Positions 15,942 to 55,709 of a stretch of 64,000 nucleotides of DNA are shown piece by piece (positions within the stretch are counted from its first letter, which is position 1; each line of letters starts with the position of its first letter). The position numbers were made by a program, and so were the translations under genes. The notes beneath the pieces were generated by a model that saw only the letters and a program-made list of their open reading frames with translations, ran no database searches and was not told the origin of the DNA. The DNA is from Mesostigma viride (lineage: Eukaryota > Streptophyta > Mesostigmatophyceae > Mesostigmatales > Mesostigmataceae): positions 7,501 through 71,500 of the forward strand of contig RPFO01000535.1 of NCBI GenBank assembly GCA_009746045.1, written 5' to 3'.

Positions 15942-18900
15942 TCAAACACTGACTCTGATATCATAGGGGTTCATGTTCTGAAAGAGGAGCTGGTACTGTT
16001 GGCCAGCAGCATCCCGCAGCTTCGTGAGAGCGTCTGCTGGGTTGTCCTCATCATCCACATGAGTCCAGCTGGAAAAATAGGTGGCCTCCTGTTTGAGGAT
16101 CACCCAATCCAAGTCAGTGTGGACAGCAGCAGAGACAGATTTCTTGGTTAGAAAACTGATCACAGATTGGCTGTCAGTATAGAGATGTGAGATGACATTG
16201 CATGTGCTGCCTGCCTGGGTTTGTAGCCAGGTGAGCATGTGCTGCAGGGAACGAGCATGCAATGCAGCAGACACCACAGCACGACATTCAGCTGAGTTGC
16301 TGCTGCCAGGTTTTCTGCGGTGTAGCCTGCTGTACCAGGAAGTGAGGGACATGTAATCTGACCTGTTGGTGAGAAAAAACAGCCCTGATTCCCGTGCCCC
16401 CATCTGATTGATTGTTCTGCTCTCCATGGAGCTGTCCATGACACATTGGATGTGGATGTCTTCCATCAGATTCAGGCCATGGAGGATGAGGGGGGGACAG
16501 TCATTGACCAACTTCCTGATGTGACTGCATTTGATCTTGACTAGAACATCATGGGTGACCCTGCTGATGACAGCTAAGGGAGCCCCACAGATGGCTGACC
16601 ACCACCCCAGTTTGCCCTGAACAGTGGCACACATATGTAAGGGGAGGTAGTTGTCCTGCAGCAGATCTAGACAATCTTGGATATATTCTGCAGGAGGGGA
16701 GAGAGAGCAGACCCACTGATCTGGCTGCCTATGCAGCTGCAACATGATGCCACAGAACTGGATGGGGGTTGTGCTCAATTCCACCTGTTTGCCAATCTCA
16801 TATGATTCCTGGACCTGCTGAATAAAGGTTTCCACCTCAGCTCTAGGCCCACAAATGAGTTGGTCATCTCCATGCCACACAAAGAACAGCAGTCCAGAGG
16901 GGGTGGGTACAACAAAAAAGCATGGGTCCAGGTCATCATACGTGGCCTTGAGCTTTTTGAATACTTCCTCTGCTGAGTCTCTGAAAATTTTTGGGGCACT
17001 GACAAGCCCTTCCACCCCAATGTTGATGATAAGGTGGGGCTCATCAATATAAGGTTTCCACACAGCTGGGGTGTCTACCACGTACACCTTCCCTTTCCAC
17101 ACAGATTCAGCCTTTTCTGGGTCCCCCCTGAGGAAGGCCCTTTTAATATCAGTGGCTTTGCAGACATAGTCTTGGCCTGCATTGAGGTTGTGGAGGAAGA
17201 GGGAGAGCATGATCCTGAGTGAGGTTTGTTGCAGCCCAGGTGTGTATGTTTCCCCTTTTGGCAGTGTGGAGGTCCCCTTTAATTCTGTGACACATGGTCT
17301 GGCATGGAAGATTGGGGAGCCCACTTTTTGTGGTTTTTGTTTGAGAACAAATTTTAATCTGAGCTTTTTGGCTCCCTCTGGCACGTCCCATGAAGGGGTG
17401 ACAGGCGGTTTGTATTGAGGGTTTTTGGGGTTGGGCAGGACCCATTCCTGCCTGGCTTGGTGGACAATGGCCATCAGCCACTTGGTAAACCCTTTTTGTG
17501 TTTTGCATTCTTGTATGACGTGGGAGATTTGGTGGGGTGAGTGCATGGCTATGTCCCACTTACCCAGCCCAAAGGCTGAGGGATGGAGGAACTGGCTGTG
17601 CACTAACTTGTCCAGATCAGGGATCTCCCCTGGTGCATACTGAGTGTTGACTGCCTTGATGACAGCATCCATACCAGGGACAATACTGGAGAGAGGGATT
17701 TTAAAGTGGTCCAGAGGAACTGCACCCACCCCTGTGACACTGAGCTCATTAGCTGAGATAAGCACCCCAGGATAGGATACAAAAGGTTCCCCCAACAAGG
17801 TGTTACCAGAGTACCCCTCCACCACCTGGAAGGGTGTCTGAATACCAAGTATAGGGAGCATCACTTGTCCCACTACATCCAGTGAGCTTTGGCCTGAGAA
17901 ATCCTGCACCCGTGCCCAAAATGAAGGTGCAATCTCAAGACCAGGGATGGCTTGTGCACTGATCACACTGACCTGTGCCTGAGTGTCTATTGCCAGGGTC
18001 CAGGGGTCCTGACTAGTGCACACAGCTGAGACTTTTGCCAACCCTGCGGCCACAGCAGCTTGTTGCTTATGTGACCTGTGTAATGCTTGCAAGGCGACTG
18101 CCAATCTTGACCTCAGAGCGGGAGGGTTGGCAGACAATTTGGTGCCTTGGGGCTGAGCTAATGCTTCCAACCCAGCTACCTCGTGCCTGGTTAAGCAATC
18201 CCCAGGTTGTGAAGTGGGCCTGGCTTCACTGAGGGTGGAAGGGTTCACAGAGGGTGCTGTGGTGCTGTCAACAGCAGTAATTGGTGGCTCAGAGCTACTG
18301 CTGGGCATGCTGGAGTTGCCAGATAGAAGTAGTGAGTCCATGCTTAAAGACTCTTCCCCAGGCACGTCTGCCATGGGAGAATAATACTTCTTAATTCTAT
18401 GACAGCTCACCCTGTGACGCTTCCCATTGATATTGTGCTTGACCTCCACGGTCTTGCTGTTTTTGGTAAATCCACGGATGGTAACTGGACCTAGCCAAGT
18501 TCCAACCTTACCAAAGCTGTTTTCCTTGTAATAGAGAACTTGATCACCTTTTTGGAATACTGGCCTGGAATGGGTTTTATCTTTTTCTGCCAGTTTTGCT
18601 GAGGTTTGTGCACGTGCAGTGTTGTACAGTGCTATCACCTCTGGGGGATATACACCTGCCTGCAGGCCTGCTGGGATTACTTCACCCCACGTGGCATGCA
18701 AGACAGGTCTCATGTTTAGGGTTGTGCACATTTCATGACACCAGAGTGCCCTGTCACAATAGACCCCTGAAGTAGCATCCTTGGAAGGATTTTTGGCTAG
18801 TAGGGTTTTGACAGATCTGATGGTTCTTTCAATGACCCCCTGACCCTCATGATCTTCCAGCCCAGCAATCTCTATTGCTTCACACCCTTCCAGGTCAGTC

Positions 18901-19556
18901 AGACAAGAAAATTGTTGATCAAGCAAAATTCTGTCAACTGGGTAGAATCTGGGTAAAGCAATCATGAGTGCAACACGTAGCTGCCCTGCAGACATGCCAG
19001 GTAGGGGTTCCATTACTGTGAACCTGGACCATGAGTCTTTTAGGATCAGGTAGGGTTGGACATCTTTGTTGATGTGCATCACATCCCCCACTATCATGCC
19101 CCTATTGGTGGAAGGAGTTGCAGTATGCCATTTTTGAGGTTTGGGGCTATTGAACTGACATTCTTGACAGTGTTGTCTAGCCAGTTTTACTGCATTCCTG
19201 AGTTGTTTTCCCATGCTACTACCCCCCAGCCGTCTGGCCAGTTCCTCAGCCACTGTTTCATGACCCATGGCTAGGTGCAGCTGATGAGCAAGCTCCTTGA
19301 TATCTATGGAGTTGTCAACAGTAGGGGTTAGTGCTTTTATGTAAGGTTCCAGAACAGGGTGTTGGGAGGACAGTAAGGTTGCTGCCTCAAAATCAATTAT
19401 GCCCTGGTTGCCATCCCCAATGGTAATGAGATCATCATCCTCAGAGTACATAAGGTGAGTGAACTCACATTGATTTGGGTAGCGAGGCCTGTTGCAACGG
19501 CTGCCTGGAGGCCCCAGGGGATGACGTGCGTGCCAGCAGCCCGGGCAGAGATCCAC
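15942..19556 (-). CDS. pol: Pol of element 1: zinc knuckle end, integrase, protease, RT, RNase H
   Basis: One open frame of about 1204 codons from the first ATG. It continues upstream in frame through a CCHC zinc knuckle (C-LR-C-FQRG-H-ARHN-C, around 19600). In order: HHCC-like integrase N-domain (H..H near residue 95, HCQECQ near 128); integrase core with D at VGDVMH, D at LLDQQF and E at GVIERTIR; a retropepsin-like domain with IDTQAQVSVIS (about 525) and LLGEPF; RT with DIKRAFLRGD (about 800) and FVWHGDDQLICG (about 893); RNase H with MDSSMES, AECRAV, TDSQSV and DNPADALTK. The protease lies after the integrase, which is not the copia order. The protease triad lacks glycine and the RT box is HGDD. 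The reading frame is intact, so the copy may be functional. Confidence 0.93.
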   Translation of the reverse strand: MDLCPGCWHARHPLGPPGSRCNRPRYPNQCEFTHLMYSEDDDLITIGDGNQGIIDFEAATLLSSQHPVLEPYIKALTPTVDNSIDIKELAHQLHLAMGHETVAEELARRLGGSSMGKQLRNAVKLARQHCQECQFNSPKPQKWHTATPSTNRGMIVGDVMHINKDVQPYLILKDSWSRFTVMEPLPGMSAGQLRVALMIALPRFYPVDRILLDQQFSCLTDLEGCEAIEIAGLEDHEGQGVIERTIRSVKTLLAKNPSKDATSGVYCDRALWCHEMCTTLNMRPVLHATWGEVIPAGLQAGVYPPEVIALYNTARAQTSAKLAEKDKTHSRPVFQKGDQVLYYKENSFGKVGTWLGPVTIRGFTKNSKTVEVKHNINGKRHRVSCHRIKKYYSPMADVPGEESLSMDSLLLSGNSSMPSSSSEPPITAVDSTTAPSVNPSTLSEARPTSQPGDCLTRHEVAGLEALAQPQGTKLSANPPALRSRLAVALQALHRSHKQQAAVAAGLAKVSAVCTSQDPWTLAIDTQAQVSVISAQAIPGLEIAPSFWARVQDFSGQSSLDVVGQVMLPILGIQTPFQVVEGYSGNTLLGEPFVSYPGVLISANELSVTGVGAVPLDHFKIPLSSIVPGMDAVIKAVNTQYAPGEIPDLDKLVHSQFLHPSAFGLGKWDIAMHSPHQISHVIQECKTQKGFTKWLMAIVHQARQEWVLPNPKNPQYKPPVTPSWDVPEGAKKLRLKFVLKQKPQKVGSPIFHARPCVTELKGTSTLPKGETYTPGLQQTSLRIMLSLFLHNLNAGQDYVCKATDIKRAFLRGDPEKAESVWKGKVYVVDTPAVWKPYIDEPHLIINIGVEGLVSAPKIFRDSAEEVFKKLKATYDDLDPCFFVVPTPSGLLFFVWHGDDQLICGPRAEVETFIQQVQESYEIGKQVELSTTPIQFCGIMLQLHRQPDQWVCSLSPPAEYIQDCLDLLQDNYLPLHMCATVQGKLGWWSAICGAPLAVISRVTHDVLVKIKCSHIRKLVNDCPPLILHGLNLMEDIHIQCVMDSSMESRTINQMGARESGLFFLTNRSDYMSLTSWYSRLHRRKPGSSNSAECRAVVSAALHARSLQHMLTWLQTQAGSTCNVISHLYTDSQSVISFLTKKSVSAAVHTDLDWVILKQEATYFSSWTHVDDEDNPADALTKLRDAAGQQYQLLFQNMNPYDIRVSV

Positions 19557-19559
19557 CCC

Positions 19560-22258
19560 GTTGGCCAGGGAGTCGTTGTTGGGGCAGTTGTGCCGTGCGT
19601 GCCCTCGTTGGAAGCACCTCAGGCACCTTATGGACCCCCCAGGGTTGCCAGGCTGGTTGTTGTTGTGTTGTTGTTGTTGTTGTTTCCCTGCTGGGACCGG
19701 TTCTGGCCCTGCTGGGACCTGTTGTTGTTGTTGTTTTGGCCCTGTTGGGACCTGTTGTTATTGTTGCCCTGCTGGGACCTGTTGTTGTTGTTGTTGTTGT
19801 TGTTGTTGGGGTTGCCATGCAGGGGCACACGGTGCCACGTGTTGCCACGCCCCTGAGAGCCACTGCCCCCTTGGTGGGAGGACTTGTGGGTCTTGGGTGC
19901 CCCCCCTGGCTGGCCTGCCCCTTGCGTTTGTGGCCTTGGACACCCTGGACCTTGGGGTCCTGGGCCTGGTTGTTGCCAGTACCCAGGGGGTCCACTGCCT
20001 CCTCGATATAGAGCATGGCAGCTCTGAAGTTGTCCCAGAGGGACTTGAGGCCTGTAAGCAGGGTAGCCAGGACAGAAGGTTGCAAATTAGCTTTTGTTAG
20101 CCAGGTGTGGATGAGATACCTTGGTTGGAGCTTGAGAAGCTCAAGGTCTTTCTCAATCATTACCCTGTATGTTTTTGCATCCCCAGAGAGGTTATTCTTG
20201 TTCACCTTATATGCAGCAAGCCAGTTGAAACGTTCTACTGCTTCCATGTGGTTATTGGTAAGCACTAGCTGTTTCAGATCAGTGATAAAGGTAGGCCACT
20301 GTTCAATGGCTGCTTCAGGTGTCAGGGTACGTTCCTGATAGGTTTGAATCAATGCTCTGATTGCAGGAGATGATTGATGGAATGTGGAGGAGGCCCTGAG
20401 AGCCTTAAACTGATGTCTAAGGTTAAGACCTTCCATCCCATACTCCAAAGCAAAAACAAATTGCTTAGCTTGTTCAACAGTGTGACCCTCAGGCAAGCCA
20501 GCAATATTGATTTTGGATTCCTTTTTATGAGGGTTAAACACACCTGTGAGAGGGGGGTTGGCCCTCAAGAAGCTGTCGGTTGCTTGTTGCAGGCGGGTGG
20601 GGTCCAGGTTGATGGTCCCCCGCTCATACCGCGACATCAGGGCGCGCAGGCCCTCGACAGTTTGCAGCTGGTTAGCTGTTAACTGCTGATCTTGCAACGA
20701 GGCCAGCTGGGCCTGGAGAATGGCGAGCTGTTCCAGGACATCCCCGCTCCTTGGGGGGGCCTCAGCAGGCCTGTTGGGTGCCTGTGGCACCTCTGCACCT
20801 CCCCCCAGGGCCTCCTGGGGTCCTGGCCACCCCCCCTGGTTTGGGAGGGGGCCCCAACCCACAGGGCGAACCTGGGGTGGTGGGGGAGGGGGAGGGGGGT
20901 CATGGTGGCCCTGGGGGAGCCCGGGGGTGTCCGGGTAACCCCACTGGGTCCAGCCCCATCGGTGGAGGGGCGGGCAGGGGTGTCTGCCTCTGCTCTCCTC
21001 CTGGCCTCCTCCCGCATGAGACGCTTCATCTCCTTGCGTACCTCATGCTCCCGGAGGGCTGCCTGAAAGCAGCCTCATCCTCGGGTATGTCAGGGAGTGG
21101 TTCTCCCATGATCATAGCAGGCCGGACTGGACAGTCCGCCTCTTTGCCCTTCCTCGCGCCCAGGGCCAGCAGTCCCTCCTTGTACTGCAGGGGTTGGGGG
21201 GGAGAGGGTTTCTTGCTGGTGGTTTCCAGCGGGGGGGCTTCTTCAGCTACCACCCCATGTTTGGCCAAGATGGCCTCCGTGACCCTGGCTTGGGTGATGG
21301 AGGACATGGTTTTAAAGTGTGCTGACCGAGCAAGCTCGGCCAGGTCTTGACTGTCCGCATAGTGCATGGGATAGTCAGCATTTTTTAAGAGGTCACGTAA
21401 CCGCTGGGTGGCCTCGCGGTACGCGTCCGCCATCGCCTGGTGGGTAGCCAGGCGACGGGCGGCTTCCTCTTCATATTCTTGCCGCTTAGCGGCGAGCCGA
21501 AAAGCCGCCTCTCGGCGGACCTCTCGGTCCCGCTGCCGCGCTCGGCGTTCTTCATTTGCCACCAGCGCGGCCTGCTCGACCGCCAGGAGCGCTGGGGTAA
21601 GATTGATCTCAGTCTCCCCATCGGGGAGACTGGCAGTGTCGGATACCTCATCGTCGGACATTGGTTGTCCGGCGATGGGTTCCACAGGTTTTCGCACCAC
21701 CCGTGCGAGTTTAATACTCTCCATGTCCTTCTTCTTGCGAAGAAGGGACGCAGAGGGTCGCCCAAACGTTAGCTCAATGTGGTTATGTCCCTGGGCGAAA
21801 GGGACATTAAGGTTTGATGTGGCGGGACGAAAGGTAATCGTCCCGTCCGGTGCCACCGAGGCCGTCTGACGGGGCATACGCTCCCGAAGAGATGGCAACG
21901 TGGGGCCGGACTGTGGAGCCTCAGTGGGGTTTACCACCGAGGTCTCCGCAGCCATGGCCGCGCCAGCCGTGGTTGCGGCTGGGGCGGCCGCCGGAGTCGA
22001 GGGTAAGCCGGTCTCCCCGGGGGGAGCCGTCTCGGCCTCCGGCCTCGCAGGGGAGGGGGGTAGGTCGGTCGGCTTTGCAGCCGCCGTCCCCTCGTCCTGG
22101 CAACCATTGTGAGTCTTTTTGTTCTTTTTCTTTTTCTTGGAAATGGCCGCATCGCCAGCCGGCTTCTTGTTGTTGTCTCTGGGCATCCGCCGATCCTGCC
22201 CATCATCATCCTCGTTGTAGGTAAGCTTCTTAGCGACATTCTTGTTCGTGATAGCCAT
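19560..22258 (-). CDS. gag: Gag region of element 1, frame-disrupted
   Basis: The ATG at 22258 lies 18 bp inside the 5' LTR. The first frame (410 codons to 21026) is acidic/Ala-Pro rich and then a charged coiled-coil-like helix (about residues 225-300). Homology to element 2 resumes in other frames: FNPHKKESKINIAGLPEGHT corresponds to RFDPKKKEDKLVFPGLPEGH, followed by a helical capsid-like part. An Asn/Gln-rich linker (19628-19828) precedes the zinc knuckle. At least four changes of frame are needed between 21060 and 19640. Most are at G/C runs or short repeats, so this may reflect indels, assembly errors or recoding. Confidence 0.75.
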
Positions 22259-22276
22259 GGTAGCAAATAAAATTCA

Positions 22277-22749
22277 AGTTAGAATGCGGTGGGATATATT
22301 GCTTGAGAACACTGAAGGCTTGGAGCAATGAATTGCTTGGTTCATTAGAAAATAGGTTTACCCTTTATCAACGTTCCTCTCACCGGCTGCGCCGCCAGTG
22401 ACCGTTGGGTGCAGACCGTTGGCCCGAGGCCGCACGATGACAGGTAGCTGCCTAGTCACTGCATCGTGCGATCACAAATCAATGCACGCTGCAGTACGGT
22501 CCCTATCTAGGATACTCTAGTACCGTCCAATGACAGGACACTACGTATACTGGGTACTGACATCTGTCACGTACCTCAGTACCCAAAGTACCTATCTAGG
22601 GAAACGTATGCGACTCGACTAGCATCCCTATCTGCATAGCCCACGTGGTATTTATATTCACATACCAACGTGGGTTTACAAGGCTTATTCATACGTTGTA
22701 TTCACAATGCCTTTGAGACTTAGTCTGCAGCAAAGCATGGAGACTAACT
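22277..22749 (-). repeat. 5' LTR of element 1
   Basis: 473 bp. On the minus strand it starts AGTTAGTCTCC and ends CATTCTAACT. It is followed by TGAATTTTATTTGC, which I could not match to a tRNA 3' end as primer site. Confidence 0.95.
22649..22656 (-). promoter_or_regulatory. TATA box in the 5' LTR of element 1, beside a G-box
   Basis: TATAAATA reads on the minus strand, immediately next to CCACGTGG (22641-22648). The spacing and location in the 5' LTR fit the element promoter. Confidence 0.5.
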
Positions 22750-22754
22750 CTCAC

Positions 22755-40103: not shown

Positions 40104-40481
40104 AGTTAGTCTAAGTCTCCCGCCTGTAGCCTAAGTGGACACGTGCCAGCACCGCCGGCGCCCAATTGGGTACTGGGACGGTGCTGGACTAGAGTAGTCG
40201 TGGCATGGACACGTGGCTGTACTCAGTATGTGATGAGCCGGTACCTCAGTACCGGGACTGTAGTTGTCATGTTAGGACTGACTAGATCAGGTTGTAACTG
40301 ATAGGTTAGTCCGTCCAGGATCAGTAAGTTAGTTTAACTTACGCAAAGTCTGGCCAGCCATCGTTGACGGCTGGCCAGCAGTATATGTGCCACATTATCC
40401 TAATGCCAAGGTGTCTCGTCGTTCACGCACACACACGCCATTTGGCAGTGCCCGAGCATTCCAGCTTTGTGTTGCATAACT
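40104..40481 (+). repeat. 5' LTR of element 2
   Basis: 378 bp. It contains two GGACACGTG words (about 40137 and 40207), a perfect hairpin at 40350-40378 (10-bp arms starting CTGGCCAGCC, 9-nt loop) and a second inverted repeat GGTAC-ctca-GTACC. Internal sequence starts TGCATTAAAAACTCC. Confidence 0.95.
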
Positions 40482-40589
40482 TGCATTAAAAACTCCAAAA
40501 ACATACACACAACAAGACGACGAGCGTTCGTCTTTCGCGAACAAAACAACCCATTCCATTTTTCGACCTCCAGTTTTTTTTGAAAAAAA

Positions 40590-43019
40590 ATGTCTAACCC
40601 CAACAGCAACAAGGGTAAGGCTCCAATGCGCCCTAGGAGCCGGTCGAGCTCCCGACGTCCTCATCGTCGGGGACGTCAGACTCGGAGCTTGCCGCCCAGG
40701 CAGAGATTGAGCGGGCGGCGAGGAGCTTTAACCAGTCCATGGAGGCTGATCCGACGACGTCGGACACGTCGTCGTCGGGACACTTGTCCGAGGGTTCGTA
40801 CAGCAGTGCGGTGCTGCGAGTTCCCCTGTATCCGCAGGGGAGGGGGTCCACGCCTGTGGTCAACAGGCCGAGGGGGCCTCCTTACGCCCCGACAGCTGCA
40901 GCGGCGGGGGTTGGACCGTCGGCACCTCCTGCAGAGGAGGAGTCCATGGAGCTGTATGGGCTCCAGCCTGGTTCCTCAGCCGAGGAGCAGGACGACGCAC
41001 GCTCGCGACAGGTGGCTGCGGATGAAGGCCTCGCTAGGGCGATGGCTGAGCGCGAGGAGCGGGAGCTTCGGCGCGCGGACACGCACGCACGTGCTCGCGC
41101 CCAGCAGAGGGCGGATGCTGAGAACGTGCGCCGGGCGTTGTTTCAGAGCAGTGAGCTGGCTTCTGGCGAGGAGCAGTTTGAGGTGATGCGTCGGGGGGAC
41201 CTTGCATGTTTTAAAAGTTTGCGTCGGTCTCGTGAGCCGAAGGTACACCTAGGTGTGCATCAGGAGTCGGAGTTCTCTTTGACAGGTCCGTCGGGGGCAT
41301 CTGCTGAGGACGAGATCCTCATGACCCCAGCCATGACGGCGCGGGAGCGTGAGGCGCAGAAGCGCATGGCGACGTTCATCGCCGACAAGCAGCGTCGGCA
41401 GGCGCGGAGGGCCGCGGCAGAGGCCAAGAAGGAGCGCGAGCATGCGGAGAGGGTGAGGCAAATCGCGCTGACGGAGCGCATCAAGCTCAAAATGTCGATC
41501 ACCCAGGTGCGCCGGGACCGGATGGTCCGCGAACTCAGGGTGTGGAAAAAGGCGCAGGCGATGAAGCTGCAGCATATGGCTGAGCTGGAGGCGCCTGGCA
41601 GGCCGGAGGCGCAGGAACGGTACAGACGCTCGCTGGCAAGGTGGGAAGCCAATGTGGGAAGGATGGAGCAGCGCATCCTGAAGCAGCGACGACGCATGCT
41701 CAAGCATGCACGTAAGTCAGCGGTGAGGGGACCGCTTGGTGAAGCGGTGAGAGTCGAGTTTGGCCTTGGGCCGGATGAGGATGTTTCTGCAAGCCAAATG
41801 TTTTATTATTTGTCGCAGCCTAAGAAGACCATCACCAACCGTGATGGCACTGCCGCACGCACGCGTGTTTACAGGCAGCCTGGTGAAGCCGGACCGTCTA
41901 ACCTGTCCAACAGGGAGGACCTCATTGATCAGCTTCAGCTGGCGCAAGCCATGCTGGAAGCAGATACCCCGCTGTCTCCAGGCGAGCAGGCGACGTTGGC
42001 CGACACGGTGGCCAGGCTAGTGGCATCGCTGAAGCCGGCCAAGCGAAGGGCGCAGGCAGAGGCATGCGCACCCCAGCCAAAGCGGAGGAGGGACGAGGGG
42101 GCGGATGACGGGGAGAGGGGGGAAACCAGGGCGGGGGTGGACATGGCACCCAGGAGTCTGCACCAACACGGCACGCGGGCGGGGAGCGGCAGCAGCAGCA
42201 GCAACAGCAACAGCAGCAGCAGCAGCCACCAACTGCAGGAACGACAACAACCTCCAACATGGCCTTGCTAGGCCCAGGTTTGATCCAAAAAAGAAAGAGG
42301 ACAAGCTAGTGTTTCCGGGTTTGCCAGAGGGCCACACCCAGGACGAAGCTAGGGAGTGGTTGTTTAAGTTGTCACATGCATATGCTAGCGACAATGTCCG
42401 TGATTGGTTTGCCTCTCTACGTGCGTCCACACCCATCCATCAATCTGCCAAGCCTATCCAGCAGTTGGTACAATTGTACCAAAAGCGTGCCAGCAGCGGG
42501 GTAGACGTGGCAGAAAATGTGTTGTGGGCGCAGTTCATGGTTGATCTTAGGGCACTTGTTACCACGGGGGAGCACTTAGAAGTGCTTAAGGGCTTCCAGT
42601 GGATAGAGGCCTATAAGGTCAATAAGCGTGACTATGTGAGTGACAACAAAAAATATGTCATGTACATAGAGGGAGATGAGGAGCTGAAGAAGCTCAATGC
42701 CAAGTACCTAGTACACCTATGGCTACAAAAGGCAGAACTGGACCCCACCACCCTGTCAGTAATCCTGGCAGGTCTAAAGGATAAGTGGGAGGACTTTAGG
42801 AAGGCAATGGCCTATGTGCAGCAATGCCTAGAGCCGTTTGCTGCTGCAGCCAAGGAGGGAAAGGTGAAGCAGGTAAAGGGGGAGGAAGCCTCAGGTACGG
42901 GGCTCTCCAAGAAGCAGATGCAGTCGCTGGTAGCCCAGGTAAAGGCGGTAATGGGGGGGATAAAAACAAAAACAACAAAAGTGGGGGAGGTGGAAACAAG
43001 GGGGGGGAAAGAACAATAA
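40590..43019 (+). CDS. gag: Gag region of element 2, frame-disrupted
   Basis: The ATG at 40590 (MSNPNSNKG) opens a frame that needs one change near 40632 to join the 40739-42271 frame. That frame is Ser/Ala rich, then a long Arg/Glu-rich coiled-coil-like helix (about 41300-41710). A second change falls in the CAG/CAA repeat (42187-42235). It leads into the 42105-43019 frame with RFDPKKKEDKLVFPGLPEGH and a helical capsid-like domain. The frame ends at TAA just after an eight-G run (42999-43006), where another change is needed to enter the Asn-rich linker and zinc knuckle of pol. The gag/pol order matches element 1. Confidence 0.75.
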
Positions 43020-43092
43020 CAATAAAAACAGAAAACAAAGTGGGGGAGCTAGCAAGCCAGGGGGTGCTAAGCCAGCAGGGGGGGACAAGAGG

Positions 43093-46000
43093 TTGCCTCA
43101 TGACCCCACCAAGCATTGCACTAGGTGCCTTTGTAAGGGGCACCTAAAAGATGACTGCTGGAAAGGCAAACCCGACTATGGTTCTGACGTTGATGTTTGT
43201 CCTGGATGCTGGAAAACACGTCACCCCATTGCAGCAGGAGCGCGCTGCACGGCACCCAGGCACAACAAGACCACGCCAGGGCGCTACAACCGCGCGGGGG
43301 CGGCAGACCAGGGCGACACCTGTAAGCTACCCTCACCATTTTTCACAAATGGTTTCCTGTTACCTTCTGTCTGCCAAGTGTTGCCTGAGTGTGATGATGT
43401 GGATTGGGAAGTGGCATATGACATGACACTGTCACACATGATGCGTGACCCCACCATAGCTTCCCTTAGTGCAGCAGCAGAAAAGGTAATCACGTATGGT
43501 GCTCTAGCAGAGCAACTGCACAAGGTTATGGGCCATGAGGCTGTGGCTGAAAGGCTAGCCAATAAAATACAAGGCCATGATCTGGAACAGATGTGCAGGC
43601 ACGTACGTAAGCACTGTGAGCAATGTCAGCTATATGCTCCTAAGCCCAGAAAATGGCATGTGGCCACACCACCACTGGCTAGAGGCAAACTGGTTGGGGA
43701 TGTTATACACGTGGTGAAGGACACGGTATACTACCTAGTCATAAAGGATGCCTGGTCAAGGTTTGTGGTAGTGGAGCCCCTGCCTGGGATGGATAAAGAG
43801 CAGCTGCACAGAGCTTTACAGATAGCCTTGGCACGTTTTCACCCCATTGAAAAAGTAATGCTGGATCAGCAGTTTCTCTGCATCCAGGACAGGAATGACC
43901 TGCCCAAGATAGAAGTGTCTGGGGCTCAAGATCATGAACGTCAGGGGTTGGTAGAACGTACCATGAGAGCCATCAGGGATGTGATAAGAAAAATGCCATC
44001 CAGGTTGGCTGACTCTGGTAGCTATGCTGACAGGGCATCTTGGGCAGCAGGGGTGACTACCCAGCTAAACGCCAAACCAATAATGTCCTCACCTTTTGGG
44101 GAAATCACCCCAACTGGCCTTCAGTCAGGCAGCTATGCTTCAGAGGTACACACTCACTACAACACACAAAGGCAGCACTTAGCCAAGTTGCTGGCAAAGA
44201 AAGACAAAAACAATGCCAGGCCTGTGTTTGAAGTGGGGGACCATGTGTTATTTTTCAGAGAGGGTGACAGAGGAAGAGCACACTCTGCCAGATGGCACGG
44301 TCCAGCTGTAGTCACCAAAATTCATGAAGAAGGGACTGCAGTCACTATACAACATGACAGAGAGCGTGTGGTCAGCAAGCATAGACTCAAGCTTTATTAC
44401 CCACCACTGGCAGACGTGTCAGGGGTAGAATTCTTGGACATGGATTCAGAGCAGGAGTCTGGTGGATTGATCTCACCCAATGAATTGGCTAAGGACGTCA
44501 TTGATGCAAGCACTAGCACCACAGTAGAAGCTCCTGTGTTCCTCAGTAGTGCAGCCCCACTACAACCCAATAGTCCACCTGGGCAGGAGGACGGTGCACA
44601 GGGTGAGCAGCAGGTAGCACCTCCCTCACACCTGGAGGAGTCACAAAACAGAGCAGATCCTGTCGTTCCCAGGAAGTCATTTGCTGAGATTCTTAAGGCC
44701 TTGCACAAGGCACACAACACTAAAGCAGTTGTGGCAACAGGTACAGCACAGGTCAATGCTGTAGGGGATGCAGGTCAAGATCCTAGTATTTTGGCTGTAG
44801 ACACCCAAGCACAGGTGAGTATCATCAGTGCAGAAGCTGTATCTGGTCTGAAAATGAAGGCCTCACCATGGGCTAGAGTGTCAGATTTTTCAGGCAAAAC
44901 CAAAATGCAGGTCAAAGGTCAGGTGAGCATTCAAATCTTGGGTATGCCCACTCCATTTCAGGTGGTTGAGGGCTACTCAGGGAATGCCCTGTTAGGGGAA
45001 CCTTTTGTATCTTACCCTGGTGTTGTCATCTCAGCTGGGAGGTTGAGTGTGGCAGGGGTAGGACAGGTGCCTCTAGATCATTTTAAAATCCCTTTGAGCC
45101 AGATTAGCACTGGGTTGGATGCTGCCATCAATGCAGTTAAGCCCAAGTACCTCCCAGGTCAGGAACCGTGTGTGGAGGACCTCATACACTCTCAAAAGCT
45201 ACACCCTTCAGCGTTTGGGCTTGGTAGATGGGATGTTGCATCCATGTCTCCCCTGTCCTATGATGATATTGTACGGGACTGCCAGACGCAGATTGGGTTT
45301 CTTAAGTGGCTTGAGGCTTTTACCAAAGCCAGGGAGGAGTGGGTTGTTCCAGATGCACGTAGTCCCACACACACACCACCTGTGACTCCTCTTGATGCTA
45401 TGCCAGCTGGGGCCAAGAAGCTAAGGTTAAAGTTTGTGTGCAAGCATAAACCTCAGGCTGATGGGGGACCACCCATTTTCCATGCTAGGCCATGTGTTAC
45501 TGAGTTCAGGGGCTCTACAGAGCTGACAGAGGCTGAGCTTTATACTCCTGGTATTCAGCAAACGTCTCTCAAGGTGTTGCTTTCCTTGTTTTTGCATCAG
45601 CTTAATACAGGGAAGGATTATGTGTGTAAAGCCACAGATATCAAAAGAGCCTTTCTAAAGGGGGACCCTGCCATAGCACAGCAGGTCTGGAGAGGTCAGG
45701 TATACGTGGTGAATACTCCTAAGGTGTGGCACAGGGATATTGTTCAACCCTTGTTGAGGCCAAACCTGGGGGTTGAAGGGTTGCAGTCAGCTCCAAAAAT
45801 TTTTAGGCTGTCTGCACAGGAGGTATTCATGAAGCTAGGGGCCACCTATGATGACATTGACCCTTGCCTGTTTGTCATCCCACACCCTGATGGAATGATG
45901 ATGTTTGTCTGGCATGGGGATGATCAGTTAATCTCAGGTCCTAGAGCTGCAGTGGATGCTTTCATAGCTCAGGTGTCTGCCAGTTTTGAGATTGGCAAGC

Positions 46001-46827
46001 AGCTAGAGCTGGGCAAGGAGCCAGTCAAGTTCTGTGGCATGATGCTTGAGTTGCTGCAGCAGCAGGGCAGCTGGGTTTGTTCCATGCAGGCCTCTGCTGA
46101 ATACATTAAGTCTTGTCTGGATGTCCTGCCTGTTCACATCACCCCTGACATGTGCCCTACCATTAGAGGCAAGCTTGGTTGGCTATGTGCTACATGTGCA
46201 CCCCACCTGGCTTTTGTGAGCAGGGTAGATGATGAGGTACTACAGGAGGTAGGAGCACGGGCAATCAAGCAGTTGTTGCATGATGGTCCACCTTTGATGC
46301 TTCACTCACTGGACCTGTTTACTCCCATTCACATCACGTGCATGATGGATAGTTCAATGGAGTCCAGGGTAGTTACCAAGGTTCAAGCCAGAGAGGCTGG
46401 ATTGTTTTTCCTGCATAACCAAGGTGGGAAGAAGTCACTAGTCTCCTGGTTCAGTAGATTGCACAAGAGGAAAGCTGTGAGTAGCAATGTAGCTGAATGC
46501 AGGGCTGTGGTATCTTCTGTCTTGCATGCAAGGTATCTCAATCACTTGCTGGTCTGGCTTCAACACCAGGCTGGTAGCTCTGCAGGAGTGAAAGCACATT
46601 TGCTGACTGACTCTCAATCTATCATCTCTTTCCTTGCCAATCCTTTGGCTGTACACTCGGACCTGGATTGGATTGTGCTAAAACAGGAATGCAAGTACCT
46701 GGAGTCTAAAGCCCACGTCAGGGACAAAGACAATGCTGCAGATGCACTGACCAAGGTGCCACAAGCAGCAGGACCACAATACCAGGTCTTGTATGGGTTG
46801 ATGAACCCTGGTTACAGTCTGAAGTGA
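43093..46827 (+). CDS. pol: Pol of element 2: zinc knuckle, integrase, protease, RT, RNase H
   Basis: An intact frame of 1244 codons. A CCHC knuckle (C-TR-C-LCKG-H-LKDD-C) is at residues 9-22. Integrase: H-x4-H near 143, HCEQCQ, D at GDVIHV (about 202), D at MLDQQF (about 257), E at GLVERTMR (about 287). An integrase C-part with VGDHVLFF and RWHGPAVV follows. The retropepsin-like domain has VDTQAQVSIIS (about 569) and ALLGEPF. RT has DIKRAFLKGD (about 848) and FVWHGDDQLISG (about 939). RNase H has MDSSMES, AECRAV, TDSQSI and DNAADALTK. The protease again follows the integrase and there is no second protease upstream. A long, Ser/Pro-rich spacer separates integrase and protease. Likely still capable of transposition. 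Confidence 0.94.
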   Translation: MPHDPTKHCTRCLCKGHLKDDCWKGKPDYGSDVDVCPGCWKTRHPIAAGARCTAPRHNKTTPGRYNRAGAADQGDTCKLPSPFFTNGFLLPSVCQVLPECDDVDWEVAYDMTLSHMMRDPTIASLSAAAEKVITYGALAEQLHKVMGHEAVAERLANKIQGHDLEQMCRHVRKHCEQCQLYAPKPRKWHVATPPLARGKLVGDVIHVVKDTVYYLVIKDAWSRFVVVEPLPGMDKEQLHRALQIALARFHPIEKVMLDQQFLCIQDRNDLPKIEVSGAQDHERQGLVERTMRAIRDVIRKMPSRLADSGSYADRASWAAGVTTQLNAKPIMSSPFGEITPTGLQSGSYASEVHTHYNTQRQHLAKLLAKKDKNNARPVFEVGDHVLFFREGDRGRAHSARWHGPAVVTKIHEEGTAVTIQHDRERVVSKHRLKLYYPPLADVSGVEFLDMDSEQESGGLISPNELAKDVIDASTSTTVEAPVFLSSAAPLQPNSPPGQEDGAQGEQQVAPPSHLEESQNRADPVVPRKSFAEILKALHKAHNTKAVVATGTAQVNAVGDAGQDPSILAVDTQAQVSIISAEAVSGLKMKASPWARVSDFSGKTKMQVKGQVSIQILGMPTPFQVVEGYSGNALLGEPFVSYPGVVISAGRLSVAGVGQVPLDHFKIPLSQISTGLDAAINAVKPKYLPGQEPCVEDLIHSQKLHPSAFGLGRWDVASMSPLSYDDIVRDCQTQIGFLKWLEAFTKAREEWVVPDARSPTHTPPVTPLDAMPAGAKKLRLKFVCKHKPQADGGPPIFHARPCVTEFRGSTELTEAELYTPGIQQTSLKVLLSLFLHQLNTGKDYVCKATDIKRAFLKGDPAIAQQVWRGQVYVVNTPKVWHRDIVQPLLRPNLGVEGLQSAPKIFRLSAQEVFMKLGATYDDIDPCLFVIPHPDGMMMFVWHGDDQLISGPRAAVDAFIAQVSASFEIGKQLELGKEPVKFCGMMLELLQQQGSWVCSMQASAEYIKSCLDVLPVHITPDMCPTIRGKLGWLCATCAPHLAFVSRVDDEVLQEVGARAIKQLLHDGPPLMLHSLDLFTPIHITCMMDSSMESRVVTKVQAREAGLFFLHNQGGKKSLVSWFSRLHKRKAVSSNVAECRAVVSSVLHARYLNHLLVWLQHQAGSSAGVKAHLLTDSQSIISFLANPLAVHSDLDWIVLKQECKYLESKAHVRDKDNAADALTKVPQAAGPQYQVLYGLMNPGYSLK

Positions 46828-47210
46828 CTGGCACATTGTACATGTTAGCCCATGACCCCCTGCCTAATACTGCAGCTGAAAGGCTGCAGTGGCAGCTGGG
46901 TAGTTTTCTGACAGTGAGAAGCACTGGTCTAGAAAGTTGGGACATGATGAATGTGTTATTTATTGAATAAAATTTTGTGAGACACTTGTTTGGATGACCA
47001 TGACATGCTGGGGCCTGGAGCACCCATCTCACTCAGTTAAGAAACCATGCTTGAGACATGGGGCCTTTTTAATGCATCTCTTGTACATGTGTGAGGTGAC
47101 CTTTGGGTCCTAGTAGGTTATCTGACAGTTTTTTAAGGCATTGGGAATGGCTGCGTCCATTTGATGGCTATGTGTGTTTCTGTTGAAACCCAAAGAAAAC
47201 TTAAAGTGGG
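46828..47210 (+). other. 3' untranslated region and polypurine tract of element 2
   Basis: Non-coding, ends AAAGAAAACTTAAAGTGGG directly before the 3' LTR. That purine-rich end is the probable plus-strand primer. GAATAAAATTTTG near 46964 could be a poly(A) signal. Confidence 0.65.
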
Positions 47211-47588
47211 AGTTAGTCTAAGTCTCCCGCCTGTAGCCTAAGTGGACACGTGCCAGCACCGCCGGCGCCCAATTGGGTACTGGGACGGTGCTGGACTAGA
47301 GTAGTCGTGGCATGGACACGTGGCTGTACTCAGTATGTGATGAGCCGGTACCTCAGTACCGGGACTGTAGTTGTCATGTTAGGACTGACTAGATCAGGTT
47401 GTAACTGATAGGTTAGTCCGTCCAGGATCAGTAAGTTAGTTTAACTTACGCAAAGTCTGGCCAGCCATCGTTGACGGCTGGCCAGCAGTATATGTGCCAC
47501 ATTATCCTAATGCCAAGGTGTCTCGTCGTTCACGCACACACACGCCATTTGGCAGTGCCCGAGCATTCCAGCTTTGTGTTGCATAACT
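47211..47588 (+). repeat. 3' LTR of element 2
   Basis: 378 bp, identical by eye to 40104-40481, and followed by the target duplication GCAAG. Confidence 0.96.
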
Positions 47589-47593
47589 GCAAG

Positions 47594-49438: not shown

Positions 49439-49440
49439 GT

Positions 49441-49781: not shown

Positions 49782-49802
49782 GAAAAAAAGGTCACGTAAG
49801 CT

Positions 49803-49874: not shown

Positions 49875-50215
49875 TTGAGCTTTCTTTTTTGAGATCAATA
49901 GAGTCCCCTTCCATGATCATGTGCGTGATCTGGTTATGATTTTCATCTATGGCGTGTGTGGCCACATCGTGTATTTACAACTTTCTAGCCATGGATAACT
50001 AGGTAACCATAAATTGGTTACCATGATAACTAGGTAAAAACGTGTTGGTTTCAGAATACATGTGATCGCTGCATTGTCATCTACAATGTACAAATCAATC
50101 ACGGATTTCGGGGCTACGGATTTCGGGGCTAAGTTTTTGTGGGTAGAGATTGGCAAGGGTGTCTTTATCTTGCCACTTGGTCACTTGGTGTGCATTACGT
50201 CTGTTCTTGCGTTGG

Positions 50216-50521: not shown

Positions 50522-50565
50522 ACTTCGAAAAACTGATAGCCTTGTCTGAAGGTGTGTGCGTGAAT

Positions 50566-51209
50566 ATTTAGATGAACGCGGATCAGTGAGTTTCTGGTCT
50601 TCCCAAGATGTGATGAATGGAGCCATGGTTTCAACCAGCGGCTTTTAACCTTTACCACAGTTGCCTCACTACCCTGTGGTCACTAGCCTGAGGCGGCAGC
50701 ACCCACGGACGGTGTTGGGAAAAGACGCTTGGCCACTGCTGTGTCCGAGCCTTTCTAGGTCTCACCATTGCTGCCAGGCCTCGCACGCCTTGGCAGGTCC
50801 GCCACTGTCAATTTCCTTGGTTGCATCAATCCAGGACGTCTGTCCTTCCATGAATGACAGTAACGCTCTGGATTTATCCGTCATGACAAGTACCCGTCCA
50901 TCCCAGGCCTGCAGGACTGCCAGTCCTGAAGTCCTGTGACATTCTTGGTACCATCAACCAATATTGACCACAGTACCTCCTAGTGACAGTCGGTCCTGTG
51001 ACACGTAACTTGTGATGGTTCACCCAACACTGCCACGTGCCCTGTCCCTCACGTGTCCTTAGTCCTGGTACTGCTGTAGCGTCCGGCGGCATTACTTCGG
51101 GACTTGATAACTCTCAAGTTCCTTGTCCAAATGAGGCGTTTAGCACGGCGTTGGAAAGGCCACTTCAAGTATGATATGCTTAGCATATTGCATCACCAAT
51201 ATGCTAACT
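50566..51209 (-). repeat. 3' LTR of element 3
   Basis: 644 bp, matching 58088-58731 except near 50780 (C versus T) and near 51168 (A versus G). It contains CACGTG twice (about 51033 and 51051). Confidence 0.95.
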
Positions 51210-52171
51210 CCAACCCTTTCTTGTTTTGGAGCTGCAAGCTTCACACCATGACCAACCCATTCCTTGCTGCCTTGTGAAATGGACACCTGGTTACCCTGGA
51301 CTTATAATAAGCCTCATGAGCACCCCTTTTGCCACCTTAATGGTATCCTTCTTAGGGATCTATGGTTCAACCCTGCCATCTGATCATTAACTTGACCTGC
51401 AGGTCATCCCCAACCCTTTCTTTTGCAACTGTACCTTGGCTTGGGCTTAAAGGAGGATATTGAATATTCCTTAGGCAACATATCCTGGATATCTGAATGA
51501 GAGGCCCTGACTACAGGAAACGTATTACAGTGAGTTCCTGGTCTTCCCAGTTATCACTGGCGCCCGTTTCATGGCGCCCGCCCCGAGCGTTCCAGGCATC
51601 ATCCATCCAAATGTTCACCAATGGAAACCACTTCAACACCACTGTGCCACTGCTTGATGGGGAGCCCATGTCATCACTGGGTGTTAAAGCCCAGGAGTCA
51701 TACATACCAGGCTGTGGCTCAACTAGGGAATCGAACCCTACCCCAGAACCCCAGGTTAAACTTAACCTGGTCACATGACAGACAACAAGAGAGATTGGCA
51801 TACAACATGATTATGTTTATTATAGAATATCCACCAAAACCAATGTTGAGTGTTCCCAGTGGACCAGCCTGCACCAGCAAGGCCCAACTGTCAGGTTACA
51901 ACACCATAATATCCAAGGTTGTCACTTATTCACAGCTAAAGAAAACTAAACAAGAGAGATATATACAAACAACCTGGAAGAACTCTCAACATGGCCTGCC
52001 CTGTCATGGCCTAACTGCCCGAGGCCAAAGGCATCCCACTGTGCTAATCCTTTACAGGAAGAGCTTGCTCCTGTTGAGCCTTCTACCTGCTTGGTGACAG
52101 GTAGGCTACCTGTTGCCCTCCCCCCTGGGGACAACAGCACTGGTCAGCCACCAACTGGCAAAGGCTGGACT
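51210..52171 (-). other. 3' non-coding region of element 3
   Basis: About 960 bp without a convincing ORF. On the minus strand it holds an isolated tRNA-type T arm (TAGGGTTCGATTCCCTA, 51724-51740) whose B box matches GGTTCGANTCC exactly. Next to it is a near-perfect 20-bp inverted repeat (CCAGGTTAA/TTAACCTGG, 51751-51770). A SINE-like insertion is possible but unproven. Confidence 0.5.
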
Positions 52172-55100
52172 TCAAGTCCCACCAGAAAAGGGGTCCATGA
52201 GCCCTTTGAGCACAGGGTATTGTAGCTCAGCCTTGCTCTCCAGCTTGGTGAGGGCGTCTGCTGGGTTGTCAACACCAGGCACATGTTCAAGATGAGCAAG
52301 GTAAGACATCTCCTTCAGCAACAAATAATCCAGATCCCTGCTCCTGGCGAGCTGTCTGTGCACAAACTGCACCATGCCCATGCTGTCTGTCTTGACCAGT
52401 GTGTGCAGCTGCAAGCTACAGGAAGCTACCTGACAGAGCTGGTAGAATAACTCCCTGAGGTAAAGAGCAGTGTGTAGCCCCTCACATATTGCCCTGCACT
52501 CAGCAATGTCACTGCTGGGCGTCACCCTGTTCTGTAACCTACTGTACCAGCTGACCAGAGAAGTGTGCTCCTGTTGTAGTGTAATGAGTGCTGCTGCCCT
52601 ACCCCTGACATCCGTCACCTTCCTGCTGTCCATGGAACTGTCCACAAAAAGCACCATGTTGAGTGGTTTGTACAAGTCCACAGCTGCCAGTATGAGTGGA
52701 GGTGAGCTCCTGACAGACTCAACCACCTGCTCTGCCCCTACCTCAACCAGCTGAGCATCTGTGAGCCTACTCAGCACCAACAAATCTGGGGCACAAATGC
52801 TAGCTAGCCAAGCCAACATTCCCCTGATTGTGGCACACCTGGCCTGGGTAATGGGCTGCTGGAGGGCATCAATGATCTGCTGAGGATAGTTGTTGCCACC
52901 CTCCATCTTGATAAACCAAGTACCTGCCCTCTTGATCAGCGTGGCCTGCATTCCACAAAACACCATGGGCTCATCCTGCTTCATGTGCTGGACCTTTCCT
53001 AACTCAAACCTCTTCTGGATCTTGGACAGTACTGAATCCACCCACTCAGGAGGCCCTAAAAGGTGCAGGTCATCTCCATGCAGAGATGCAAACACAGGCA
53101 ACCCTTCATGAGTACTCTGGAACAAGCAAGGATCAACTGGAGACACAGTAAAGCCACAGTGAGTTTTCAGAAACTTTTCCAGGCTCTTTCTCCAGATGAT
53201 AGGGCTGGACCTGAGACCCTCCAAACCCTTGAGTATTCTGAGATATTTTGACTTGATCTCTGCTCTCCACACCTTGGGCACTGTTACAAAGAAGGGAGGG
53301 ATATCACGCCACGTCTCCTTGGCCTGCTCCACATCACCTTAAGAAAAGCCCTCTTGAAATCAATCAGCACAGAGCTGTACGCAATGCCCTTGACCAGGAA
53401 AGACAGATATATACACAGAACAATCCTCCAGGTATCATGCAGCATCCCAGGCGTATACAACTCCTCATCTGTCAGCTCCCCCGTGCCATGGTACTCAGTC
53501 ACAACTGGCCTCACATGTGGCACCTGCACACCGTCTATCTCCTTCAGCTTGAGCACAAACAAGAGCCTTAGCAACTGATGCTCCCTGGGCAACTCATCCA
53601 CAGGCTCAGCACAGTTAGACACTATCCAGTCATGCCCACTGGAGACAAACCCTAGAATCCATGCCTTAGCCATCTTGGGGCTTTGCATCAACTCTACCAA
53701 CTGGTGCCAGGAAATAGGACTGTGACCAGCAATCTGGTACTTGTGCACCCCCAAGTCCCGTGGATCTAGGGTGGTTGGGATGATCAACAAGTCCTCAGCA
53801 ATGGGCTCCTTGCCTTCAGGCCCCACACTCTGCTGCCCCTTCACAGCCTTGACTGCCACAGCTAGACCCTTGGAGTAGTGATATCTCTGGAGGGGCAAAC
53901 TGCCATGACCTTCTAGTGCAAGCTCATCTGCTGACAGAGTCACTCCTGGCATGCACAAGAAATTCTGGCCCAAAATGGCAGGCCCCTGGTACCCTTCCAC
54001 CACACAGAACGCAGTGGGGACACCCAGGATAGGCACAGTCACTTCCCCTAGGATCTTCATTGTTACAGTGCCCGTAAAGTCACTCACTGCCCTGCAGCCA
54101 GCCTTATTCACCTTCAGGCCCTGAGCATCCTCCACCCTGATGATAGACACCTCTGAGTTAGTATCCACTTCTAGGGTAGCAGCCCAGCAAGAACCCCATT
54201 CAGTCAACTTAGATACCTTGGGATCCTTGTGCTTGTTGAACATGAGCGACCGGACAATGTCTGCCATGAGTGGCCTCTTGGACCCTGGTGCAGGCCCAGC
54301 CCCCGTTGGCTCCACCACAGGTGATGCAGTTGCCTCCTGCACCTCATCATCATCAGAGGGATAGCCACCTCCCACGTCAGTGACAGGCACATCAACTACC
54401 TGGTCCTTAACCTGGCCCTCCAGCCAACACTGGGGTCCAGGCCCGTCTGCAGGCCAGATTGCATGTGGCTTGCGTTCCTTGACGTTGGCCCAGCTCAACC
54501 TGTAAACATGCCTGGGATTACTCTCCAAGGCCACAAGGCAGGAACGATTGGCATCTTCCACACAGGTCACCACCCCGTTCTGCCACTTGCCCCTCTTGCC
54601 CTGCATTGATGGCTCCTTCCACATTCTGACCTTCAGCCCCACCTGAGGCCTCAGCACATTCCAGCCCCTATCCTTGCGTCTCAACTGAGCAAACACCCTG
54701 TCTGCTTTCCTCAAGCATGCCTGGACCACTTCCTGGGCTAGCATCCAAACTGCAGTGCTACAGGATTGACAGCCACCCCGTCATAATAGTAGTTTATTCT
54801 GAGGTTCAACTGTTCTTCCACCTGCCTGGTCCACACTGCCCTCTCCAAAGCAGATGCTACCAGTGGCACCTTAGGTTCTGCCAGCACTACGGTCTTGACC
54901 TCCCTGATGGATCTCTCCACAGCACCTTGCTGTCCATGGCTCTCCCTGGGCGTGACCAGCAGCTTGCATGGCAGTTGCTCCTGCTGTGACAGTAGGCACT
55001 CAAACTGAATATCAGCCTGTACTGTCTTGTACACCCCAAAGCCTGGTAAGAGAGTCTGCAAGCCCAGCAGCAGGGTATTCCCCTTCATATCTGGCAGAAT

Positions 55101-55709
55101 CTGGAGCAGCCTGTACCTGCTAAATCTGTCCACTGCCACCAAAATGTATAAGCCCCTGATATGCTGGACGTCTACCTGGATGTCCCCCTTCTCCCTGGCA
55201 GGCTCCCTAGCATGGGACCTTGGCTTCTTGGCAGCATTCTCCTTACAAGCACATTGCTCAGCTGCAGCCCTGCATGCTTCCCTCAGTGGCTCATCTCCAA
55301 TCTTCCAACCAAACATCTCAGCCATGGCTGTGTGACCAAAGATATTGTGCAGCCTGCGTCCAGCATCCGTGTAGCTCAGTTGCCTAGCCAGATTACGCAC
55401 CTGGGAAGACGCCTGGACGGGCCCTGCGTGTGAGGACGCAACATCCACCTTCTGCATCTTGGATCCAGAGGACCCAGCAGACCCTCCCAGCAGAGCATCT
55501 AGGCTCCCAGAGCCAACCCTGTCTGGGGACCCTCCACCTGTTGACAGTTGAGGGGATTGTTGTGCTGCAGCATGCATGCAATCTTGTGGAATGAGAACAT
55601 CAGTACACCCCTGGTGCTGATCAGAGGTGGCACCCTGCCCAGATTTATTTACATGTGAAGCTGTGTCCCCACAGGGTGTCTCACTATGTACACGGGACTG
55701 CTTCACTAG
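52172..55709 (-). CDS. pol: Pol of element 3: integrase, protease, RT, RNase H, two frame breaks
   Basis: Three overlapping frames: 55706-54738, 54744-53284 and 53332-52172. Integrase: GHTAMAEMFGW, C-rich CACKENAAKK, D at VDVQHI, D at QADIQF, E at GAVERSIREV. The protease-like part has VDTNSEVSII (about 54140-54165) and AILGQNFL. RT has IDFKRAFLK then HGDD (about 53070-53085). RNase H has VDSSMDS, AECRAI, KTDSMG and DNPADALTK. The first break overlaps TTTGGATGCTAG near 54745. The second lies in the FLKGD motif near 53338, where one G of a run is missing relative to elements 1 and 2. The domain order is again integrase-protease-RT. It follows gag in frame after a TGA. Confidence 0.85.

Follow-up and report, generated by a model that had tools for sequence, protein, structure and literature searches.

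The order of domains in pol defines the families of LTR retrotransposons. In Ty1/copia elements (Pseudoviridae) this order is protease-integrase-RT-RNase H, and in Ty3/gypsy elements (Metaviridae) and the Belpaoviridae it is protease-RT-RNase H-integrase; Gmr1-type Ty3/gypsy elements place integrase before RT. Retropepsins are aspartic proteases (MEROPS A2/A11). In the passages available, the ICTV profile of the Pseudoviridae gives the order protease, integrase, RT-RNase H (PMC8515867), and two further papers place the copia integrase between protease and RT (PMC3248453; PMC6317226). One sentence in the available part of the ICTV profile of the Belpaoviridae places the Pseudoviridae integrase upstream of the protease (PMC8742986). 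This sentence was rejected as a precedent and treated as a slip because the available passages of the other three papers put the protease first, as do three ordinary copia controls from the genome studied here (a protease stretch, Pol_BBD, lies before integrase in 3/3 loci).

The window, the whole 64,000-nucleotide stretch of Mesostigma viride DNA that was analyzed, contains three elements (E1, E2, and E3; Table 1). As the first-pass annotation had proposed, and as Pfam matches and alignment bear out, in 3/3 elements an integrase is followed by a retropepsin-like block, a copia-type RT, and RNase H. Outside the window, the genome holds a fourth family with this order in a single frame, and none of the four families has the Ty1/copia or the Ty3/gypsy and Belpaoviridae order. 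The four families are probably a copia-related LTR retrotransposon lineage of Mesostigma viride whose pol reads integrase, retropepsin-like domain, RT, RNase H; a lineage with the integrase-protease-RT order is real and apparently unpublished. Judged from the sequences compared, the order is ancestral to the group because it is common to four divergent families, in agreement with the initial view that it is not the rearrangement of one copy.

Near-identical direct LTRs and 5-bp target duplications identify all three window elements as LTR retrotransposons and show them to be longer than first delimited. In E2, Pfam profiles detect rve and then RVT_2, as anticipated, with weak retropepsin-type matches in between (Peptidase_A2_2, E 0.049, and gag-asp_proteas, E 0.16, in the whole protein), all of these scoring under the curated cut-offs. 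RVT_2 is the sole Pfam match of E1 by itself at E<=1, and the E1 integrase and protease-like blocks were located through alignment to E2. The integrases carry the D, D, E residues and the GxxER motif reported for them, the latter as GVIER, GLVER, and GAVER. A zinc knuckle had been attributed to all three elements; the CCHC motif is present in E1 and E2, and none was seen in the E3 frames read. The E3 pol, initially described as one protein, is split over three frames in the window copy, and an intact E3-family copy (L046) has the domain order in one frame.

Table 1. Positions of the three elements and their parts in the window (position 1 is its first letter).
Feature	Positions	Strand	Remarks
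E1, whole element	15095..22749	-	LTRs 15095-15568 and 22277-22749, 1 difference in 474; target duplication CTCAC
E1 pol open frame	15942..19757	-	zinc knuckle, integrase, protease-like block, RT, RNase H
E1 RNase H	15972..16484	-	approximate; by alignment
E1 reverse transcriptase	16662..17489	-	RVT_2 E 1.1e-4; HGDD active-site box; approximate
E1 retropepsin-like core	17700..18017	-	triad DTQ, D = pol residue 524
E1 integrase	18372..19298	-	approximate; by alignment to E2
E1 ORF2	19468..21042	-	gag-like, homologous to E2 ORF2
E1 ORF1	21029..22273	-	no Pfam match at E<=1
E2, whole element	40104..47588	+	LTRs 40104-40481 and 47210-47588, identical; target duplication GCAAG
E2 ORF1	40637..42268	+	no Pfam match at E<=1
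E2 ORF2	42033..43016	+	gag-like
E2 pol open frame	42964..46827	+	zinc knuckle, integrase, protease-like block, RT, RNase H
E2 integrase	43504..44400	+	HHCC, D203, D258, E288, C-terminal module; rve = pol residues 198-259; approximate
E2 retropepsin-like core	44770..45087	+	triad DTQ, D = pol residue 570
E2 reverse transcriptase	45298..46122	+	RVT_2 E 9.4e-7; HGDD box; approximate
E2 RNase H	46300..46812	+	by alignment with ordinary copia; approximate
E3, whole element	50566..58731	-	LTRs 50566-51209 and 58088-58731, 2 differences in 644; target duplication TGAAT; pol frame interrupted in the window copy
E3 RT second part and RNase H	52172..53338	-	RVT_2 E 3.8e-4, RVT_3 E 0.078
E3 middle open piece	53284..54780	-	integrase end, retropepsin-like block, RT start
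E3 retropepsin-like core	53878..54189	-	triad DTN
E3 integrase open piece	54738..55709	-	rve E 0.0038

The RT and RNase H are of the RVT_2/copia type. RVT_2 matches E2 (E 9.4e-7), E1 (E 1.1e-4), and the E3 family (E 8.6e-7), all under the 31.6-bit cut-off, and the fourth family has no RVT_2 match at E<=1. With an ordinary Tanacetum copia, the E2 RT-RNase H aligns by BLAST over residues 780-1221 (E 7e-17). RT-RNase H identity is 35-60% among the four families, and BLAST alignments with ordinary copia give 22-28%; the fourth family, which has no BLAST match at E<=1e-3 to four copia elements, is tied in via E1-E3. An RT-RNase H tree, made in answer to the RT phylogeny proposed at the outset, and an integrase tree beside it (FastTree, four new and four ordinary copia sequences, without an outgroup or broad copia sampling), each separate new from canonical elements in 100/100 bootstrap replicates.

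At the D-T-G site of aspartic proteases, the block reads D-T-Q, D-T-Q, D-T-N, and D-T-M in the four families in place of the catalytic D-[TS]-G. The triad is constant in the loci sampled: DTQ in 8/8 for E2, DTN in 16/16 for the E3 family, and DTM in 22/22 for the fourth family (20 distinct copies). The third residue is glycine in a gypsy protease used as a control, and the three copia controls from the Mesostigma genome have glycine or alanine there. Because none of the four families retains the catalytic glycine, the word protease is used here by homology and not for a competent active site. Between E1 and E2 the block is the most conserved domain (69% identity, vs 64% for RT, 62% for RNase H, and 50% for the integrase core), with a dN/dS of about 0.13. 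A protease upstream in gag had been suggested as a check; a scan of the three forward frames of E1, E2, E3, one fourth-family copy, and one E3-family copy found no canonical motif (the patterns covered were hD[ST]G[ASTCV] and D[ST]GAxx[HYR], not D[ST]A) apart from LADSGS inside the E2 integrase.

Whether the block still cuts is finely balanced. To its action as an atypical dimeric aspartic protease we assign nearly an even chance, slightly preferring it to a non-cutting fold. A real but lesser possibility is that the block is a pseudoprotease, derived from a retropepsin, that has lost catalysis and serves dimerization or spacing, with processing performed by a host protease or unneeded. Such a loss would fit the Q, Q, N, or M where the controls have glycine or alanine and the lack of a second protease motif in the forward frames, but it sits less easily with a D-T dyad retained in 4/4 families and with strong purifying selection on the domain between E1 and E2. 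An active block would mean that aspartic proteases can function without their near-invariant glycine, and an inactive one that a domain thought to be needed for maturation has turned structural.

Several comparisons bear on the fold itself. Searched alone against Pfam at E<=10, the E2 block matches only three models, all retropepsin-type (E 0.0033 and 0.0064, both below curated cut-offs, and 0.083) and all covering the entire D-to-LLG span; no retropepsin-type Pfam match was found for the E1 and E3 blocks. A four-family block profile run against all PDB chains gave four matches at E<=10, three of them to chains named protease, which are weak (E 0.82-1.0) and rank behind an unrelated chain at E 0.7. 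In these three the LLGEPFVSYPGVVIS stretch is aligned on IIGRNLLTQIGMTLN, and two of them are tethered dimers, presumably of the HIV-1 type. The first block profile had matched one unrelated fimbrial chain only (E 0.53), and E2 pol had no match in the PDB. Against one gypsy protease the block profile was not significant, with the motifs aligned. In a shuffle test (500 shuffles per protein), a PS00141-type pattern was used that allowed any residue at the G and required two hydrophobic residues and G 40-75 residues on. Its strict form occurs once each in E1 and E2 (0 per shuffle) and has no match in the E3 and fourth families; a looser version matches all four pol proteins, once per protein (0.004-0.016 per shuffle). 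No match to Pol_BBD was found in the new elements at E<=1. Two AlphaFold2 models of the block are poor (best pLDDT 53.6), and no retropepsin is among the structural matches listed. Since the structure prediction is of low confidence, we infer the homology of the block to retropepsins from weak sequence scores, motif, and position. It is unlikely that the block is another beta-rich domain, such as an SH3/Tudor-like barrel, with fortuitous DTx and LLG motifs, given the exclusively retropepsin-type Pfam matches of the E2 block, the in-register though weak protease matches in the PDB (3/4), and the presence in four families of both motifs at a protease spacing that is rare in shuffles. That the block is a dUTPase is provisionally discounted, on motifs only.

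Relatives outside Mesostigma were not found by the protein searches with E2 pol, block, and RT, although divergent ones may have escaped. With E2 pol (8000 candidates scored), the matches listed include only a Mesostigma gene model carrying an RNase H fragment that is 84% identical; the block returned nothing among 796 candidates; and the RT (1050 candidates) returned a Mesostigma relative, P0013, and three Tanacetum copia proteins (E 0.06-0.6). Among viral contigs, E2 pol had no match, and a three-family profile gave pattern matches at 141 stretches, none confirmed. The lineage could already be catalogued in a repeat database or subscription paper and simply be an early-diverging copia clade; the literature covered was open-licence full texts, with Repbase and GyDB outside it. 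This we consider improbable: apart from the ICTV sentence discussed above, the first-pass statement that no described family has this order holds in those texts (none of 5.39 million papers states the order in the wordings tried, whereas 20 state the canonical order, taken as a control), and the available passages of the two Mesostigma genome papers describe no LTR family.

An artefact, whether an assembly error or the spread of a single rearranged copy, has a negligible chance of explaining the order: the E3 window copy is frame-broken, but three of the four families have many near-identical copies on different contigs, which argues against both versions, stop-free copies are frequent (12/38 genomic matches of E2 pol, window copy included, span residues 1 or 2 to 1244; 15/71 of the fourth family span the whole query; 32/88 scored matches of the 486-aa E3 middle piece lie within an unbroken 1179-aa frame), and RT-RNase H identity across the four families is just 35-60%.

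The elements presumably move by ordinary copy-and-paste. A transcript would yield gag and gag-pol, through two +1 frame steps in E1 and E2 and, in the fourth family, by reading past a single in-frame stop; the products would be packaged and reverse transcribed, and the DNA inserted by an integrase using the AGTT...AACT ends. Upstream of integrase, the ancestral protease site was presumably lost, and between integrase and RT there is now a retropepsin domain in which the D-T dyad is retained and Q, N, or M replaces the usual glycine. As a tentative overall account, the elements could be an undescribed reverse-transcribing lineage, outside the Pseudoviridae by gene order, in which the protease, relocated or gained anew, lies between integrase and RT and works with a D-T-Q/N/M site, and in which the integrase acts on AGTT...AACT ends and has, in one family, D-D-D as its catalytic residues. 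That a lineage with another order has been successful and recently active shows that pol order can be rebuilt. According to the available passages of a large plant survey, elements with an odd order, repeated domains, or a chimeric look were always discarded as probable mispredictions (PMC6317226), so lineages of this kind may be lost to routine filtering.

Like Ty1/copia elements (Pseudoviridae), the new elements have LTRs, a gag-like ORF, a 5-bp target duplication, a zinc knuckle (E1 and E2), an integrase upstream of RT, an RVT_2-type RT, and a copia-type RNase H ending in ADALTK. Unlike them, they carry the protease-like block between integrase and RT rather than before integrase, neither Pol_BBD nor a protease of the D[ST][GA]AxxH type was found upstream (in a scan that did not include D[ST]A), and the LTR ends are AGTT...AACT (AGTT...AAAT in E3). 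The RT box is HGDD, in contrast to YVDD in the Tanacetum copia and HVDD in the three Mesostigma copia controls, and RVT_2 scores are 21-29 bits where matched, compared with 146-178 bits in ordinary Mesostigma copia. The block motif (hDTxxxVSII ... hLGxxF) gives the impression of being nearer the gypsy/A2 than the copia type, and the integrase C-terminal module, as in Ty3/gypsy elements (Metaviridae), has a GP-containing segment that we take to be GPY/F-like; unlike in Ty3/gypsy, the RT and RNase H are copia-type, the protease is not first, and the integrase is not last in pol. With retropepsins the block shares the register of hydrophobic-D-T-x-A/S, a flap-like glycine, and hydrophobic-hydrophobic-G-x-x-F, and it differs from them in all four families by Q, N, or M at the catalytic glycine.

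Elements 1, 2 and 3, together with a fourth family of related elements elsewhere in the Mesostigma viride genome, form a real, distinct, copia-related lineage of LTR retrotransposons with the pol order integrase, protease, reverse transcriptase (RT). The order integrase, retropepsin-like block, RT and RNase H, as read in all three elements by the first-pass annotation, is confirmed by Pfam and by alignment, and it extends to the fourth family. In the pol protein of element 2, Pfam places rve at residues 198-259, Peptidase_A2_2 at 569-632 (E 0.049) and RVT_2 at 770-969; the pol of element 1 aligns along it at 54%. The window copy of element 3 is broken and has the same domains in the same order spread over three frames, and an unbroken genomic copy of its family (L046) holds them within one 1179-aa frame. 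In the fourth family (gene model P0013) a gag frame and one stop codon are followed, in the same frame, by a 1249-aa pol of the same order; its domains were placed by alignment, and its pol gave no Pfam match at E<=1. P0013 runs colinear with element 2 through the block, RT and RNase H (41% over 699 aligned positions). This Mesostigma gene model, retrieved by protein search, is encoded in the genome with 100% identity over all 699 residues. Another gene model, P0012, is long and of low complexity, with a C-terminal RNase H fragment 84% identical to element 2; its annotation probably extends into an element.

The protease-like domain is the part of the lineage most worth an experiment. It is a putative protease: D-T is kept and the block is well conserved between elements 1 and 2, but the catalytic glycine following D-T is absent in all four families. 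Among the loci fetched, a subset of all copies, the triad is DTQ in the element 2 family (8/8), DTN in the element 3 family (16/16, window copy included) and DTM in the fourth (22/22, representing 20 copies, two of them seen twice). The block is the best conserved of eight regions compared between elements 1 and 2 (69% identity), with a dN/dS of about 0.13 that is rough, dS being near saturation. Two of three ordinary copia controls from the same genome (L047, L048) carry D-S-A in an otherwise typical copia protease, so the third triad position varies in the neighbourhood. A scan of the forward frames found no further protease motif. The fourth-family integrase has D instead of E as its third catalytic residue (LGLIDRH) at 19 of 22 loci; at the remaining 3, no such motif was found.

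RVT_2 has 150 scored matches in the genome at 148-178 bits; elements 1 and 2, the unbroken element 3-family copy and the RT piece of element 3 score 21-29 bits, and the fourth family has no RVT_2 match at E<=1. The ordinary elements read (3/3 loci, of the 150) have Pol_BBD, gag_pre-integrs, rve, SH3 and RVT_2 in this order, and a DSAASSHM or DTGATYHM motif lies within the Pol_BBD stretch, which is taken for the copia protease. RT-RNase H identity is 35-60% among the new families and 22-28% between these and ordinary copia (7 BLAST pairs at E<=1e-3, a threshold at which the fourth family had no match); ordinary Mesostigma and Tanacetum copia share 32-34%. The split between new and ordinary elements has 100/100 bootstraps in the RT-RNase H and integrase trees alike. 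With 8 sequences and no outgroup, these trees establish that the cluster is distinct but do not show at what rank. In the integrase tree the internal branching of the two groups has poor support or is odd, with Tanacetum copia placed inside the Mesostigma controls.

The 5-bp target duplications of elements 1-3 are clean. Their LTRs begin with AGTTAG and end with TAACT (TAAAT in element 3), unlike TG...CA; in the two fourth-family copies inspected the ends are AGTTG...CAACT and the duplications ACGCT and AACAT. Elements 1 and 2 hold ORF1, ORF2 and pol in successive +1 frames (three frames). The two elements share a homologous ORF2 (42% identity, E 3e-56); for ORF1, homology was not detectable in this comparison. 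The single stop codon parting fourth-family gag from pol (L029:4228-4230; likewise in L030) suggests readthrough of the stop, in contrast to elements 1 and 2 with their +1 steps. In the element 3 family (L046:2963-2971) the gag-frame stop overlaps the pol-frame opening within a few bases, which makes an ordinary overlapping frameshift hard to place; stop-and-restart is possible.

Retroelements and tandem repeats in the window
Feature	Window position	Strand	Repeats or copies	Other
Element 1	15095-22749	-	LTRs 474 bp, 1 difference	duplication CTCAC
Element 2	40104-47588	+	LTRs 379 bp, 0 differences	duplication GCAAG
Element 3	50566-58731	-	LTRs 644 bp, 2 differences	duplication TGAAT
Small element (1.8 kb)	36379-38168		terminal repeats 321/319 bp, 99% alike	adjoins satellite
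40-bp satellite array	13387-15095, 22752-36146, 38164-40103, 47589-49439		about 335 copies in largest block	
30-bp tandem array	146-4889		about 158 copies	several open frames, both strands
Three tandem arrays	7330-7889, 9130-9366, 10232-10404			different periods

Elements 1 and 2 are both embedded in the 40-bp satellite and flanked by its blocks, in which long frames are open on both strands. The small element has no frame >126 aa on the + strand and looks like a non-autonomous LTR element. The position of all three in or beside the satellite suggests a safe haven or targeted insertion. The consensus units of the three tandem arrays of different periods have the palindrome CCAACGGCCGTTGG in common.

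Further copies were sought in a genome of 440 Mb in 2243 contigs (442 Mb as published; PMC6947507). The counts are lower bounds from the best candidates scored in the element 2, element 3 and fourth families. At least 12 of 38 scored matches to element 2 pol, the window copy included, are stop-free and whole or one residue short; at least 15 of 71 in the fourth family span the whole query without stops; and at least 32 of 88 in the element 3 family lie within a 1179-aa open frame. The youth and success of the lineage speak for a working gene order.

LTR retroelements in Mesostigma number 60339 (27.9%; PMC6947507), and the portions available of the two genome papers (PMC6947507, PMC7027972) describe no LTR family. 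Phrasings of the integrase-protease-RT order had no match in the literature searched, in which phrasings of the canonical order occur in 20 papers. Further searches, as far as the retrieved texts extend, gave no published description except a sentence in the ICTV Belpaoviridae profile (PMC8742986) that sets integrase upstream of protease in Pseudoviridae and is taken for a slip. The new lineage works like a copia element. The pol order that defines the Pseudoviridae was tested, and the new lineage has a different one; for this reason it is not filed in that family.
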